This document shows, piece after piece, positions 4,557 to 19,225 of a stretch of DNA of 64,000 nt. The translations under genes and the position numbers were made by a program. The DNA lies in contig NZ_JAOYTH010000010.1 of the NCBI RefSeq assembly GCF_025847205.1, positions 124,001-188,000 on the forward strand, in the 5' to 3' direction. The stretch comes from Pararhizobium sp. YC-54. Its GTDB lineage: Bacteria; Pseudomonadota; Alphaproteobacteria; Rhizobiales; Rhizobiaceae. Position 1 is the first letter of the stretch, and the number at the start of each line of letters is the position of its first letter. The notes beneath the pieces were generated by a model. It ran no database searches. It saw only the letters and a list, made by a program, of their open reading frames with translations, and had not been told where the DNA came from.

Positions 4557-4871
4557 ATGAGTGCTGCGTTGATGGATGTGCGTTTTTCGGAAACGGAAGA
4601 ACGGGTCGTACCGTTTCCCTTGTCGGGACAGGCAAGCACCATCAGGCGTTGCGCCCGCGAGCTGGAAAATGTCCATGGTGACGAGGCTTTGCAGTACTGG
4701 AAAACCGAGTGCCGCGTTCTGGCGGAAGGCTTGAGAAGGCTGGGATGCTCGGAAGACGCTATCCGCACGCAAGTGATGGCCTTCCAGACCGAAGTCCAGG
4801 TGGAAATGATGCGCCGCTATTCGGACCGCCTCGCCGCAGAGGCTCAGGACGGTTACACCCTCAATTCTTGA
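4557..4871 (+). CDS. Small conserved protein resembling DUF6074
   Basis: About 104 residues. The run RVVPFPLSGQASTIRRCARELE resembles rhizobial DUF6074 proteins, which share a short (V/I)(I/V)PFP motif followed by a charged helix and a Trp-containing segment (here YWKTEC). The ATG at 4557 is preferred because GGAG lies nine bases before it; an in-frame ATG at 4542 lacks a good site. The function is unknown, and it stands alone between divergent and convergent neighbours. Family assignment is from memory of the motif and is moderate. Confidence 0.65.
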   Translation: MSAALMDVRFSETEERVVPFPLSGQASTIRRCARELENVHGDEALQYWKTECRVLAEGLRRLGCSEDAIRTQVMAFQTEVQVEMMRRYSDRLAAEAQDGYTLNS

Positions 4872-4965
4872 ACTCTAAAGGTGCTCTGCCCTCGGGCGGA
4901 AGACACAGGTTTGTGCGGTCACCGGGACGCCGGCGCGATGTGTCCAAACACCAAAGCAGATACCA

Positions 4966-4992
4966 AAAAGGGCAGCCGCGAGCTGCCCTTTT
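4966..4992. terminator. Bidirectional rho-independent terminator
   Basis: Perfect 11-bp stem AAAAGGGCAGC/GCTGCCCTTTT with a 5-base loop, with T runs on both strands. It sits between the convergent DUF6074-like gene and the aspartate decarboxylase gene, whose stop is 24 bases away. Confidence 0.85.
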
Positions 4993-5015
4993 GTCGTTGT
5001 GAAGCTTCGGCCCCG

Positions 5016-6608
<1,593 letters not shown>

Positions 6609-13511: not shown

Positions 13512-14195
13512 ATGTCAAGAAGCCTTGTCAATAAAAATTCGAAATCCGTATCGTCCCCGAAACCGGCAGATGTAAGGCTGGAAAAAGGTGACTGTGTGCA
13601 GGTGCGTCAGGCGCCGAGAGATCGTATTGTTTCAACGGCTTGTGAGCTGTTTCGGCAACACGGCATTCGCGGTATCGGCGTCGATGCGATCGCCGAAGCC
13701 GCCGAAACCAACAAGATGACGCTCTACCGTCATTTCGGCTCGAAAGACGACCTGATCTGCGAGACATTGCGGTTCACCTCCGAAAAAGCCGCCGCCTTCT
13801 GGGACCAACTCGAAGCCTCCTACCCGAACGATCCGATGGCGCAGCTTCACAGTTGGGTGAAGGCCAGGGCACAGTGTCTTGCCGACAATAAATATGGCTG
13901 CGATCTCGCCAATGCGGCCGTTGAATTGAAAGAGCAGGGCCATCCGGCCCATGCGGTGATCGAAAACTTCAAGCTTGCCCAGCGCCGCCGCCTCGAAAAG
14001 CTCTGTCGCGATGCGGGCGTGAGCGAACCGGAGCTGCTCTCCGATACCCTCTCGATGCTGATGGAGGGCGCCCAGGTGAGCAAGCTTGCGACCGGCAGCG
14101 AAGGCCCGTCGATGCGGTTCATGCGGGCATGCGAGGCTGCCATCGCCTCGTTCTGCCAGCCGGCAAAACGGACCGTCGAAACCGTCGGTTCCTGA
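13512..14195 (+). CDS. TetR-family transcriptional regulator
   Basis: A 227-residue TetR repressor. After a 30-residue basic leader, the DNA-binding domain runs about residues 35-85: RDRIVSTACELFRQHGIRGIG, then IAEAAETNKMTLYRHFGSKDDL, the classic TetR signature. The C-terminal part has LHSWVKARAQCLADNKYGCDLANAAVEL, as in regulators with a TetR_C domain, and EGAQVSKL near the end. The operator-like palindrome just upstream suggests autoregulation and possibly control of the divergent 87-residue gene. The ligand is unknown. Confidence 0.88.
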   Translation: MSRSLVNKNSKSVSSPKPADVRLEKGDCVQVRQAPRDRIVSTACELFRQHGIRGIGVDAIAEAAETNKMTLYRHFGSKDDLICETLRFTSEKAAAFWDQLEASYPNDPMAQLHSWVKARAQCLADNKYGCDLANAAVELKEQGHPAHAVIENFKLAQRRRLEKLCRDAGVSEPELLSDTLSMLMEGAQVSKLATGSEGPSMRFMRACEAAIASFCQPAKRTVETVGS

Positions 14196-14342: not shown

Positions 14343-15164
14343 ATGTCCCCTTTCCAGGAATTCATTGTCAATCCAGACCCTGCGGACTGGTGGTCGGCGC
14401 ATCGCGGTGCCTCGCCGATTATCGGCACAGCCATTCACAACGGTCATCATATCCGAAGCGACCTTGAGGATTTCCTCGGCCTCAGCGGCGACCAGCGGCT
14501 GCGGGAGGAGGACCCTTTTACCGAATTTTTCATCCGCGATCTGCCCAACCGCATCGTCTTCCACCGTTCCCGCTTCGAGATCGACATCAACCGTGCCCGC
14601 GACGGCGCCATCTATCTGAAACCGGAACAGGCCTGGGGACTGAAGGTCTGGGCGCAGCAATTGCCTGACGATGCCATCGCGTCTTCTCTCGGCATTCACG
14701 ACGCATACTATGCCATGCTGGAAACCTGCCTGCGCGGCCTTGAGCAGCAATACGGCGCCTTCGTCCTCCTCGACATCCACAGCTACAATCACCGCCGCGA
14801 TGGGGCCGAAGGTCCCGAAATGCCGTTCGAAAAAGCACCGCAGATCAATATAGGCACCTCCTCGATGGATCGTCTGCGCTGGGCGCCGGTGCTCGATGCC
14901 TTCATCGAGCAATTGCGCAGTTTCGAATTTCGTGGCCAGCGCATGGACGTTCGCGAAAACATCGCCTTTCAGGGCAAGGGCGAGCAGACGCGTTTTGTCC
15001 ACGAACGGTTCCCGGCCAGCGGCTGCGCCATTGCCGTCGAATTCAAAAAGTTCTTCATGGACGAGTGGACGGGGGAACCGGATATCGAGGCGCTGACGGC
15101 GATGCGGGAGATGATCCGGCTGTCGCTGCCGGTTCTCACTGAAGCCTTGCGGAAACGGCCATGA
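14343..15164 (+). CDS. N-formylglutamate amidohydrolase-family protein
   Basis: A 273-residue protein of the FGase/HutG family (PF05013). HNGHHIRSDL near residue 30 and LLDIHSYNHRRDG near residue 145 carry the metal-binding and catalytic His/Asp residues; RFEIDINRARDGAIYL is the arginine-rich substrate loop, and AVEFKKFFMDE near the end supplies a conserved Glu. Canonical members deformylate N-formylglutamate in histidine breakdown, but no hut genes are nearby. Instead its stop overlaps the next gene by 4 bp in an operon with a metallopeptidase and an ATP-grasp ligase, so the true substrate is probably an acyl-amino acid or peptide. Confidence 0.85.
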   Translation: MSPFQEFIVNPDPADWWSAHRGASPIIGTAIHNGHHIRSDLEDFLGLSGDQRLREEDPFTEFFIRDLPNRIVFHRSRFEIDINRARDGAIYLKPEQAWGLKVWAQQLPDDAIASSLGIHDAYYAMLETCLRGLEQQYGAFVLLDIHSYNHRRDGAEGPEMPFEKAPQINIGTSSMDRLRWAPVLDAFIEQLRSFEFRGQRMDVRENIAFQGKGEQTRFVHERFPASGCAIAVEFKKFFMDEWTGEPDIEALTAMREMIRLSLPVLTEALRKRP

Positions 15165-17059
15165 CCAACGCCCGTCGCAATCATCGGGATAGCACCGCCA
15201 ACCATCCGGAATGGCTGGAGGACATTCTTGATTGCATCCGGGCGGGCAAGTCCGTGCGTAAGGATTTCGACAATGGCGGCCGCCTTCACATCGATCGGCC
15301 GCTGCCTTTCCTGTCCGTGCATTTAAGCAGGGGCAGGGAGGATCTCGCCGCCCGGGATATTGCCGCTGCCAATGCCTCCTATCTCGTGGTCAACGAGATC
15401 GACGAAGCCCTGCCGGTCATCACGGCGGTCGGCGGCGTTCTTCGGGATCGTTTTAATGCGTTCCTGCTGTTGGATATCGATGAACTCGACCATGACACGC
15501 TGATCACCGACGATGCGGCTTATCTGCCCCCGTTCGAAATCCGGATTGCTTCAACGGCGGATACCGCCGCCAAAGACGCGGCGGAGGCGATGGCCGGGGG
15601 AACCGACATCCGCCCAGTCAAGTTCAGGACGCCGCATGTTGAGCGAATTGAACTGAAGTCCGATCACCAGGCTGCGGCACTGGCCGAGCGGACCGGTTTC
15701 CCGCTGGTCGCCGTCCGGTTCGCCCCGATCTACAGGCAGCCGGAATCGGGCAACACCTATCCCGACCTGCGCGAGCGCCTGGTCGCCAACATCTTCGACG
15801 CCGGCCTGAAGGCATTCGCAGCCTTTGTCGGCGCGACCCAAAGCCTGAAGCTGACGACACACCGGGCGCTCGGCCGCAAAGCCTTCGTCGATGCCGTCAG
15901 CCGTGCCGACCGTAGCTTCGATGATGTTGCATCGAGTTTCGATTTCCTGCTGGCGGTCACGCCGATCAACACGGACGCTGCCTGGCAGGCGTTCAAGGCG
16001 GGCAAATTCAGGCAGGAGCCGCAATTTCTGTACCGGCCACTGTCCGTGCGGGTCGAGGTGGAAAAACGAAAGCTCTTCTCGGTCGCCTTCGACCGCTTCG
16101 AGGATCCCGTCCTCTACCATCTCTACCGCGAGAAGCAGCAGGAACTCGACCTGCAGCTGTCGTTGATTTCAGCGCGCGAAACCAGCCGCTTCGTCGAATA
16201 TGGCCGCGCCCTCTATGGTCCGGTCGAACCGTCGCTCCACCATATGGCCCAGGATATTCTCGCGAAAACGGCAGCGCTTGCCGACGACGGCGATGACAAA
16301 GAGTACGATCCGCAGACGGCGGATTGCCACGAAGTCGAAGCTGCAGCGCGCGTCATGATTGCCGATTACCTTCGGCAATATCGGGGCTTTGCTGCCGAAG
16401 TCGAGTTGCGCGACGACCTGCCGTCCGGAATGCTGGTCTCGGGCGAACGCCTGCTGATCTCACGTCACACCCTGATGCCCAGAGACCGGATCCATGCGCT
16501 TTTGAGCCACGAGATCGGCGTTCATCTTCTCACCTATTTCAACGGCTCGGCGCAGGGGTTGCGGCTCTTCCGCTCCGGCCTTGCCGGCTACGAGGGCATG
16601 CAGGAAGGTCTTGCCGTATTCTCCGAATATATGGCAGGCGGCATGACCGTTAGCCGGTTGCGCCTGATCGCCGCCCGGGTCGTTGCCTGTTCGGCGATGC
16701 TGGAGGGCCGGCCGTTTACCGGGACCTACAACATGCTTGTCGGCGAACACGGGTTCGGGCCGGTCGCTGCCTTCCATCTGGCCATGCGATTGTATCGCGG
16801 CGGTGGGCTCGCCAAGGACGCCATCTATCTGCGCGGGTTGCTGGAACTGCTCAGCCACTTGAAATCGGGCGGTGCGCTCGATCCGTTCTGGATGGGCAAG
16901 ATCTCCGCCTCGCATTTCCGGGTGATGCAGGAATTGAACCTGCGCGGCCTGTTGAAGGCGCCCGTCATTCGCCCTGCTTTTCTTACCCACCCGCAAGCAC
17001 AAGCCCGCCTCGACAAGGCGCGGGCGGGACTGAGCCCTCTGGATATGATCATCAGTTAG
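15161..17059 (+). CDS. DUF1704 (QEGLA-motif) putative zinc metallocarboxypeptidase
   Basis: A 632-residue soluble protein. The C-terminal half carries HEIGVH at residues 450-455 (an HExxxH zinc motif) and QEGLA at 481-485, the defining motif of the flavohemoglobin expression-modulating QEGLA family (DUF1704). Vertebrate members of this family (MATCAP) are tyrosine carboxypeptidases acting on tubulin C-termini with the same HExxxH plus downstream Glu. The N-terminal 300 residues are family-typical but without known function. It is coupled to the upstream amidohydrolase by a 4-bp overlap and followed after 8 bp by an ATP-grasp ligase. A carboxypeptidase role here is inferred. Confidence 0.85.
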   Translation: MTNARRNHRDSTANHPEWLEDILDCIRAGKSVRKDFDNGGRLHIDRPLPFLSVHLSRGREDLAARDIAAANASYLVVNEIDEALPVITAVGGVLRDRFNAFLLLDIDELDHDTLITDDAAYLPPFEIRIASTADTAAKDAAEAMAGGTDIRPVKFRTPHVERIELKSDHQAAALAERTGFPLVAVRFAPIYRQPESGNTYPDLRERLVANIFDAGLKAFAAFVGATQSLKLTTHRALGRKAFVDAVSRADRSFDDVASSFDFLLAVTPINTDAAWQAFKAGKFRQEPQFLYRPLSVRVEVEKRKLFSVAFDRFEDPVLYHLYREKQQELDLQLSLISARETSRFVEYGRALYGPVEPSLHHMAQDILAKTAALADDGDDKEYDPQTADCHEVEAAARVMIADYLRQYRGFAAEVELRDDLPSGMLVSGERLLISRHTLMPRDRIHALLSHEIGVHLLTYFNGSAQGLRLFRSGLAGYEGMQEGLAVFSEYMAGGMTVSRLRLIAARVVACSAMLEGRPFTGTYNMLVGEHGFGPVAAFHLAMRLYRGGGLAKDAIYLRGLLELLSHLKSGGALDPFWMGKISASHFRVMQELNLRGLLKAPVIRPAFLTHPQAQARLDKARAGLSPLDMIIS

Positions 17060-17067
17060 GAGCCGCC

Positions 17068-18114
17068 ATGCGCGTCGCATTCTTCGTCAATTCGATCGAG
17101 ACAGAGGAACCCCGTTTCACCACCACCGCGCTGGCAATGGCCGCGCTCGCCCGTGGCCATGACGTCTGCTATATCACGCCGGGCGATTTCGTCTTGCGTC
17201 CGGACGATAGCCTGATGGTGCGAGTGACCACGGTTGCCGCCGGAAAATACAAGAACGCCCAGGCGTTCCACGATGGTTTTCAGAGCAAGGACGCCAAGGT
17301 CCAGACGATCGACGTTCGCGAGGTCGATGTCATCTTCCTGCGCAACGATCCGTCGCTCGATTCCGACGACCGGCCATGGGCCGCCTATATCGGCGCCATG
17401 TTCGGGCGCCTGGCCTGCGAACGGGGCGCAATCGTCGTCAACGATCCCGGCGGTCTGGCGCTCGCCCAGAACAAGCTCTACTTCCAGGGCTTTCCCGAAG
17501 CGGTGCGTCCGGAAACGCTGATATCCAAGAACATCGAGGAAATCCGCACCTTTGTCGCCGGTCACCGCAAGGGCGTCATCCTGAAGCCGCTGCAGGGCTC
17601 GGGCGGCAAGAACGTCTTCAAGATCGCCACGCCCGACGATGCCAATCTCAACCAGATATTCGAAGCGGTCAGCGGCGAAGGCTACCTGATCGCGCAGGCC
17701 TACTTGCCGGAGGCAAAGGCAGGCGATACCCGCCTCTTCATGATGAACGGCAAACCGCTGGTGCGTGACGGGGTCTATGCCGCTTTCCGCCGTATTCCGG
17801 CCAAGGGCGATCTCCGTTCGAACATGCATGCCGCCGGCACGGCGGAGGCAGCAAAGATCACCGGTGGCATGCTGGCCATCGCCGAGATGGTCCGTCCGAA
17901 ACTGATCGAGGATGGCATGTTCCTGGTTGGTCTCGATATCGTCGGCGACAAGATTTTGGAGATCAACGTCTTCACGCCCGGCGGCCTTCCCGATATTGCC
18001 GGCATGCACAAGATCGATTTCTCCGAGGAAATCATCGAAGCCCTGGAAAACAAGATCGCCATCCGTAAGGTCTATGCCGGCTCCTTGCCCAACCGGGCTC
18101 TGGCCACTCTATAG
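17068..18114 (+). CDS. Glutathione-synthetase-like ATP-grasp ligase
   Basis: A 348-residue ATP-grasp protein with GshB-type layout: an N-terminal Rossmann-like domain (MRVAFFVNSIETEEPRFTTT), VFLRNDPS-type motif (DVIFLRNDPSLDS), then VVNDPGGLALAQNKLYF, the ATP-binding VILKPLQGSGGKNVF and the metal-binding EINVFTPGG near residue 300. These ligases join a carboxylate to an amine through an acyl phosphate. The gene is not next to gshA, sits 8 bp after the QEGLA peptidase and differs in context from housekeeping gshB. It probably makes an amide or peptide bond on a substrate shared with the neighbouring amidohydrolase and peptidase. Confidence 0.85.
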   Translation: MRVAFFVNSIETEEPRFTTTALAMAALARGHDVCYITPGDFVLRPDDSLMVRVTTVAAGKYKNAQAFHDGFQSKDAKVQTIDVREVDVIFLRNDPSLDSDDRPWAAYIGAMFGRLACERGAIVVNDPGGLALAQNKLYFQGFPEAVRPETLISKNIEEIRTFVAGHRKGVILKPLQGSGGKNVFKIATPDDANLNQIFEAVSGEGYLIAQAYLPEAKAGDTRLFMMNGKPLVRDGVYAAFRRIPAKGDLRSNMHAAGTAEAAKITGGMLAIAEMVRPKLIEDGMFLVGLDIVGDKILEINVFTPGGLPDIAGMHKIDFSEEIIEALENKIAIRKVYAGSLPNRALATL

Positions 18115-18134
18115 GCTGTTCTCGGGGCTCATTT

Positions 18135-18845
18135 GTGCTATCGCGGGCGCCTCAACGATTGGATGCGCACGTGATACCCTGGACCCTGATTGACACAGCG
18201 ATAATGCCTGACGGCGGCGGCGAACTGCGCCTGAAGCAGCGCGGCAGCGAATTCTCCATCATGCTCGGCGCGATCGAGCTGATGAACAGCCGGCTGAGCG
18301 GCTCGGAAGAAGCGCTGGCCCGGCTGGCCTATGAGCGTATCCGCAATCATCCGCGGCCGCATATGCTGATCGGCGGGCTCGGAATGGGGTTTACGCTGCG
18401 AGCGGCACTGGCAGCGCTTCCTGGCGACGCCCGGATAACGGTCGGCGAACTGGTGCCCGCCGTTGTCGTCTGGGCGCGCGGACCGATGGCCGAAGTGTTT
18501 GCAGGCTGTCTCGAGGATGAAAGGGTGGCCATCCGCGAGGGCGATGTCGGCCGTGTCATCCAGTCTGCGGCCGGCGAATACGACGCGATCCTGCTGGATG
18601 TCGACAATGGGCCGGAGGGGCTGACCCGCAGGGCAAACGACGCTCTCTACAGCGTTGCCGGTCTACAAGCGGCGCGCAAGGCGCTGAAGCCGAACGGCGT
18701 TCTCTCTGTCTGGTCGTCCGCGCCGGACGCAGGCTTCACGCGCCGGCTGAGGGATGCGGGGTTCGCCGTCGAGGAATTGTCGGTTCGCGCCAGCACCAAA
18801 GGGCGCGGCGCCCGCCATGTCATCTGGATGGCGACCCGCCGTTAA
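18135..18845 (+). CDS. Spermidine-synthase-like (class I SAM fold) protein
   Basis: A Rossmann-fold protein of 236 residues with LIGGLGMGFTLRAAL (SAM/dcSAM binding glycine motif), VGELVPAVVVWA (acidic residue after strand 2), DAILLDVDNGPEGL (strand 4 motif) and SVWSSAPDAGF. This matches the spermine/spermidine synthase superfamily, but it lacks the substantial N-terminal beta domain of SpeE. The start is uncertain: GTG at 18135 gives the full frame, while GTG at 18171 gives a protein starting VIPWTLIDTA, which looks like the family start. It is 20 bp after the ATP-grasp gene and is probably the fourth operon member. It may be an aminopropyl- or methyltransferase. Confidence 0.75.
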   Translation: MLSRAPQRLDAHVIPWTLIDTAIMPDGGGELRLKQRGSEFSIMLGAIELMNSRLSGSEEALARLAYERIRNHPRPHMLIGGLGMGFTLRAALAALPGDARITVGELVPAVVVWARGPMAEVFAGCLEDERVAIREGDVGRVIQSAAGEYDAILLDVDNGPEGLTRRANDALYSVAGLQAARKALKPNGVLSVWSSAPDAGFTRRLRDAGFAVEELSVRASTKGRGARHVIWMATRR

Positions 18846-19225
18846 AAACCTTCGCGCTTCATCAGGATGCGCACCTCGTCGAAGCGGCGCTTGTTTTCCT
18901 GGTTCTTTTCATCTGCCGAATAGCAGGTGCTGGCGAGGCAAAACCGCTTCAGCCCGTAGGGGGCGGCGGCGCTGTCGAATTGGCATTCGAACGTATCGAC
19001 CATATTCTTCTTCTCGACGCCGTCGCGGGTGGAATAGGTCATGCGCGCGCCCGGTGGTTTGAGTTCCGGAAAGGACTGAACGACCCCGGTGTGCAGGGTT
19101 TCGGTCATCAACAGGTGCTTTGCGACTTTCACGCAGAGGTCTTCGATCTTCATCGATTGGGCAGCGGCGGGCGATACGGCCAGCATCGGCGACGCGAGCA
19201 CGAGGGCAAACACGATTTTTCTCAT
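18842..19225 (-). CDS. Periplasmic hypothetical protein with signal peptide
   Basis: A 127-residue protein with a clear Sec signal peptide, MRKIVFALVLASPMLAVSPAAAQ, cleaved about residue 23. The mature part is soluble and has two well-placed Cys residues close together (FECQF and CLAST C), possibly disulfide-bonded. No family recognised. It converges on, and overlaps by 4 bases, the spermidine-synthase-like gene, so the two stop codons interlock. The function is unknown. Confidence 0.7.
   Translation of the reverse strand: MRKIVFALVLASPMLAVSPAAAQSMKIEDLCVKVAKHLLMTETLHTGVVQSFPELKPPGARMTYSTRDGVEKKNMVDTFECQFDSAAAPYGLKRFCLASTCYSADEKNQENKRRFDEVRILMKREGF

Follow-up and report, generated by a model that had tools for sequence, protein, structure and literature searches.

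A conserved three-gene cassette links a GshB-like ATP-grasp ligase to a QEGLA/MATCAP metallopeptidase and an N-formylglutamate amidohydrolase-type protein

Three adjoining genes of Pararhizobium sp. YC-54 encode a free-standing amidohydrolase of the N-formylglutamate amidohydrolase (FGase) type, a long QEGLA/MATCAP metallopeptidase and a GshB-like ATP-grasp ligase, here called FGA, QEG and GSL. They lie in a 64,000-nucleotide stretch (contig NZ_JAOYTH010000010.1, positions 124,001 to 188,000) that we refer to as the window. The three genes are contiguous and on the same strand in every one of 80 related loci. We propose, tentatively but as a quite plausible reading, that as a cassette they build up and break down a single kind of amide-linked small molecule.

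Results

FGA, QEG and GSL form a conserved unit

The genes and domains of the cassette in the window are as follows.
14343..15164, + strand: FGA, free-standing FGase-type (PF05013) amidohydrolase, 273 aa, from Pfam match and motifs
15161..17059, + strand: QEG, 632-aa long-form QEGLA/MATCAP protein, from family matches and motifs
15248..15850, + strand: QEG residues 30-230, a domain related to FGases that lacks the H-N-G, SRFE and D-x-H-S-Y motifs
15989..17026, + strand: QEG residues 277-622, MATCAP metallopeptidase domain with HE451xGxH and QE482GLA
17068..18114, + strand: GSL, GshB-like ATP-grasp ligase of the PRK12458 subfamily, 348 aa

A scan of genome contigs with GSL gave 138 confirmed stretches; the 80 loci analysed here are the best of these. 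FGA and QEG stand directly upstream of GSL in all 80, which is more than chance would give. Across the loci the QEG match begins -7 to 95 bp past the FGA match, and GSL begins -1 to 19 bp past the QEG stop. Sinorhizobium meliloti 1021 carries all three genes, in order, on pSymB. When the flanking DNA was grouped by nucleotide similarity (at least 400 bp), the 79 flanks on each side fell into at most 47 groups upstream and 40 downstream. These counts are upper limits on distinct contexts, because diverged but related flanks count apart.

Further partners were sought among open reading frames (ORFs) of at least 100 aa in 68 loci, with the 12 loci closest to the window set aside. At the protein level, and among the 45 largest clusters listed, no further conserved partner was found in more than 10 of the 68; every larger cluster consisted of FGA, QEG or GSL or of ORFs that overlap one of these in another frame. 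Outside the cassette, the biggest cluster was present in 10 loci and on either strand. A search within 1.2 kb for a small carrier or precursor ORF gave no family in more than 13 of the 80 loci among the top ten clusters listed, although short peptides could be missed.

Linkage recurs with the long form of QEG

In the window's family, QEG and GSL (the latter at E 1e-90 or better) occur in the same 16 of 151 genomes and are adjacent in all 16. The distribution is patchy, covering 10 of 106 genera. In the window's class, PF08014 is found in 6 of 241 genomes. The ligases there that score 475, 404 and 377 bits all lie beside a long QEG, although only the first is over the curated cut-off; the next score is 236.5. 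In the phylum, PF08014 is found in 53 of 397 genomes. Six genomes hold eight places with a type-A GSL, and each of the eight adjoins QEG.

We examined 25 QEG surroundings, 15 of long forms (at least 624 aa as ORFs), nine of short forms (393-482 aa) and one of a broken gene. A same-strand ligase adjoins 14 of the 15 long forms, none of the nine short forms and not the broken one; neither GSL nor FGA lies near any short form. Neighbourhood analysis of DUF1704 genes, which the initial annotation had put forward as a check, thus finds the ligase linkage again, and finds it with the long forms. In the one exceptional long form (L168, 7658-10610), QEG has no ligase and an AstE/AspA-type amidohydrolase lies directly upstream, perhaps a variant with another deacylase partner. 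One short QEG (L176) has a RimK-like ligase, scoring 60 bits to GSL, about 5 kb away. In L130 (genome G067) a short QEGLA gene is split into separate reading frames.

FGA and the MATCAP domain keep their motifs

FGA matches the FGase family PF05013 at 75.7 bits (cut-off 28.9) and carries the motifs H32xG34, EEDP, SRF78xxDxNR, D144xH146SYN and E233xKK. Residues H32, G34, D144, H146 and E233, among others, are kept in all 88 aligned rows. The HutG model TIGR02017 gives FGA 25.3, far below its cut-off of 278.75.

QEG matches MATCAP PF08014 at 305.1 bits (cut-off 27) and TIGR02421 at 363 (338.65), with HEIGVH at residue 450 and QEGLA at 481; the initial annotation had read HExxxH and QEGLA in the DUF1704 protein. 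All 104 aligned long forms and all 80 loci keep the HExxxH and QEG motifs, and from its sequence the MATCAP domain is a predicted metallocarboxypeptidase. A search of PDB sequences with FGA and with QEG gave no match up to E 0.1.

The extra N-terminal domain of QEG is related to FGases, since profile and fold comparison both support the kinship. Profile alignment with hhalign gave P values of 2e-8 and 3.2e-10, where 40 column shuffles gave 0.058 or weaker; in the fold comparison, HutG and aspartoacylase folds were both among the relatives. The window-type domain is catalytically empty, with none of the three FGase motifs in any of the 80 loci. A gammaproteobacterial form of QEG keeps these motifs intact and is a fusion of the two hydrolases, with the ligase adjoining.

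GSL is closest to GshB and falls in groups of its own

GSL matches GSH-S_ATP at 177.8 bits (cut-off 23) and PRK12458 at 475.6 (408). Neither gshB equivalog cut-off is reached by the window GSL, which scores 225.2 where 272 is required and 206 where 299.05 is; with the RimK-type model TIGR00768, whose cut-off is 143.4, it scores 56. By sequence GSL is closest to GshB, yet in a tree of 37 chosen rows GSL type A, GSL type B and GshB make three separate groups.

GSL also differs from GshB at the conserved EINVTSPTG motif. SPTG is present in 26 of 26 GshB rows, which came from 28 loci after two were removed by a motif filter not involving TSPTG. At this position GSL has PGG in all six type-B sequences and PGG or PGA in all 80 Rhizobiales loci. 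GSL also carries substitutions at other sites where all 26 alphaproteobacterial GshB rows agree: D to N8, F to T20 and E to N135. Besides a separate gshB (453.5 bits with the equivalog model), the window genome has a gene of the GCS2 type and, in addition to FGA, five FGases. A canonical gshB is likewise present in addition to GSL in 8 of 12 host genomes tested.

Neighbouring genes in the window

Two genes flank the cassette.
18135..18845, + strand: spermidine-synthase-like protein, a local neighbour outside the conserved cassette, from a weak family match; 12 of 80 loci
13512..14195, + strand: TetR-family regulator upstream of the cassette, a possible local regulator; 12 of 80 loci

The initial annotation had joined the first of these to FGA, QEG and GSL in a four-gene operon. 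Its reading frames and spacing are correct: all four genes lie on the + strand, FGA and QEG overlap by 4 bp, and gaps of 8 bp and 20 bp precede GSL and the spermidine-synthase-like gene. As a conserved unit, though, the four-gene operon was rejected and the three genes stand. The fourth gene is placed outside because it is limited to 12 loci, the closest relatives of the window's own, which also have its TetR and glgA neighbours. Its product has a weak Spermine_synth match of 24.2 (cut-off 22.9) and a single weak PADLOC match of 27.2 bits; FGA, QEG and GSL had no match to anti-phage defence systems in PADLOC (E 0.001). Convergent with the spermidine-synthase-like gene, and overlapping its end by 4 bp, is a 127-aa gene (18842-19225) that belongs to no known family and was matched in 14 loci.

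A relative of the TetR gene (42%) is also upstream of the cassette in L188. Where the window has TetR, LysR-family regulators in opposite orientation lie near the cassette in L162, L166, L171 and L172, which are outside the window's order. Promoter-like sites number 3 against 1.3 expected, and terminator-like sites 10 against 5.6, neither count being informative.

Discussion

A proposed cycle and its alternatives

In the cycle that we propose, GSL would spend ATP on activating the carboxylate of a small acidic compound, probably gamma-glutamyl or N-blocked, to which it would couple an amino acid. This residue, now at the C-terminus, would be taken off again by the MATCAP domain of QEG. The acidic residue that is left would still carry an amide, and an FGase would finally hydrolyse that bond in the manner of N-formylglutamate deformylase or aspartoacylase. 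In the window's lineage the active FGase would be the separate gene, and the QEG N-domain would be an inactive copy related to FGases that perhaps holds a substrate or partner. That both hydrolases are one polypeptide in Gammaproteobacteria suggests that they act in sequence. The sequence analysis establishes the linkage, the fusion, what the domains are, which motifs are kept or lost and the change in the ligase motif; the order of the reactions, the class of substrate and the cycle as such are proposals. Since no conserved small ORF lies alongside, a metabolite is favoured over a dedicated protein substrate, which could be encoded elsewhere. Of the peptide or protein-tail cycle first suggested for this locus, we lean, with reserve, towards the small-peptide part.

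The protein-tail part of that suggestion would have GSL attach an amino acid to the C-terminus of a protein, from which the MATCAP domain would cut it, by analogy with TTL and MATCAP on tubulin or with RimK and RimB on ribosomal protein S6. This seems improbable. Sequence, fold and tree all show the ligase to be GshB-like, the small-ORF search around the cassette argues against a protein substrate beside it, and there is no obvious place for the FGase in a cycle of this kind. Still more remote is a regulatory role in which QEG modulates gene expression and its neighbours are incidental; the NCBIfam name of the QEG family is the single point in its favour, and the intact motifs of the aligned long forms and the invariable three-gene linkage speak against it.

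A further alternative is that GSL is a second, perhaps stress-induced, glutathione synthetase, with the hydrolases recycling glutathione or its conjugates. We consider this unlikely, if less so than a protein-tail cycle. The window genome and most hosts tested already hold a canonical gshB, both GSL types group apart from GshB, and SPTG is replaced by PGG or PGA. It can also be argued that a synthetase is not expected to need two dedicated hydrolases.

Several results weigh against our proposal of a small-molecule cassette. GSL shares the ATP-grasp fold of GshB, its core residues and its arginine loop (R242, R250, N252). Type-B GSL lies narrowly above the 272 gshB cut-off in five of six genomes (type-B scores include 292.4 and 274.3), while staying below that of TIGR01380. 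Among the 12 hosts, four type-A genomes (G245, G315, G326 and G269) lack any match above the gshB cut-off yet carry a GCS2-type gene, so GSL is possibly their glutathione synthetase. Two of the 16 family genomes carry an additional, solitary GSL. A distance of 1.4-2.0 kb separates FGA from QEG in two loci, L169 and L174, and the 12.5 kb of L173 contain no FGA. The window-type N-domain gave no match to the genome's own canonical FGases (P 0.17, with a profile of two sequences, one partial). The view of the initial annotation that the ligase is not an ordinary gshB is supported by the separate tree groups, the PGG/PGA change and the DUF1704 linkage, and weakened by the four hosts without another GshB.

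In those four hosts the cassette ligase is the best GshB-like match, and G326 has three copies. The solitary GSL copies lie at 7989-9035 in L184 and 8124-9164 in L185, in genomes that also have the full cassette.

Relation to known systems

GshB (E. coli 1gsa; TIGR01380, PRK05246) resembles GSL in fold, ATP-grasp residues and arginine loop, and differs from it in tree position, in SPTG, at N8, T20 and N135 of GSL, and in its models' cut-offs, which the window GSL does not reach. QEG differs from the MATCAP/TMCP tubulin carboxypeptidases (PF08014, 7z5g) in being bacterial, in its extra N-terminal FGase-related domain and in its ligase partner. The nine short bacterial QEGLA proteins (TIGR02421) have the same peptidase domain as QEG but lack the N-domain and the two neighbours. 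FGA, with its PF05013 match and conserved motifs, resembles the N-formylglutamate deformylase HutG and aspartoacylase, and is set apart from HutG by its low score with that model.

The mammalian N-acetylaspartylglutamate cycle uses a RimK-like ligase, carboxypeptidase II and aspartoacylase to add a C-terminal residue, remove it and deacylate the N-acyl acid. Its three reaction types are the same as those proposed here; the ligase and carboxypeptidase families differ, and the logic alone is common. LysX and ArgX ligases work with the LysW carrier and its carboxypeptidase. They match GSL in fold, but no counterpart of LysW was found beside the cassette in the small-ORF search of the 80 loci. The RimK/RimB and Rlo systems also pair an ATP-grasp ligase with a peptidase, but their proteases are retropepsin-like and their ligases RimK-type; Rlo is important at low osmolarity (PMC12239564). 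We found no description of the cassette in the open-licence literature, and an earlier prediction beyond that literature is possible.

Published gene pairs and low salt

COG3930, the group assigned to VV2_1203 of Vibrio vulnificus, is presumably the QEGLA group. VV2_1203 and VV2_1204 (glutathione synthetase) are consecutive among the clade-2-specific genes tabulated for this species (PMC3091676). In Photobacterium damselae at 1% versus 3% NaCl, A0J47_RS17020, named GshB, is up 38.4-fold, the next tag, RS17025 (QEGLA), 27.5-fold, and RimK is induced 52-fold at low salt (PMC10308900). In its accessible sections that paper treats A0J47_RS17020 as glutathione synthetase and mentions QEGLA once, in a table (PMC10308900). 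In Photobacterium sp. DA100 both matches overlap and belong to the fused type; the damselae pair is probably of this type too, because the genus is the same and the tags are consecutive. In L163 a divergent RimK gene (4748-5653) lies beside a fused-type cassette.

Implications

In P. damselae low salt strongly induces the annotated pair, and a role in osmotic adjustment is therefore possible. It is conceivable, though we put it forward with some hesitation, that the cassette is a further bacterial ligase/peptidase cycle beside RimK/RimB and LysW, one that builds and dismantles a peptide metabolite through a peptidase of the tubulin carboxypeptidase family, keeps a dead amidohydrolase domain for structure and perhaps serves osmotic adjustment. 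For the little-studied bacterial QEGLA/MATCAP proteins this is a strong clue to function: they have a ligase and an amidohydrolase as cognate partners, the latter in part fused to them. The results also suggest that genes of the PRK12458 group annotated as glutathione synthetase need not be such, including one published as GshB in a transcriptome. What the bacterial relatives of tubulin detyrosinases cut becomes directly testable, for example in Sinorhizobium meliloti 1021.
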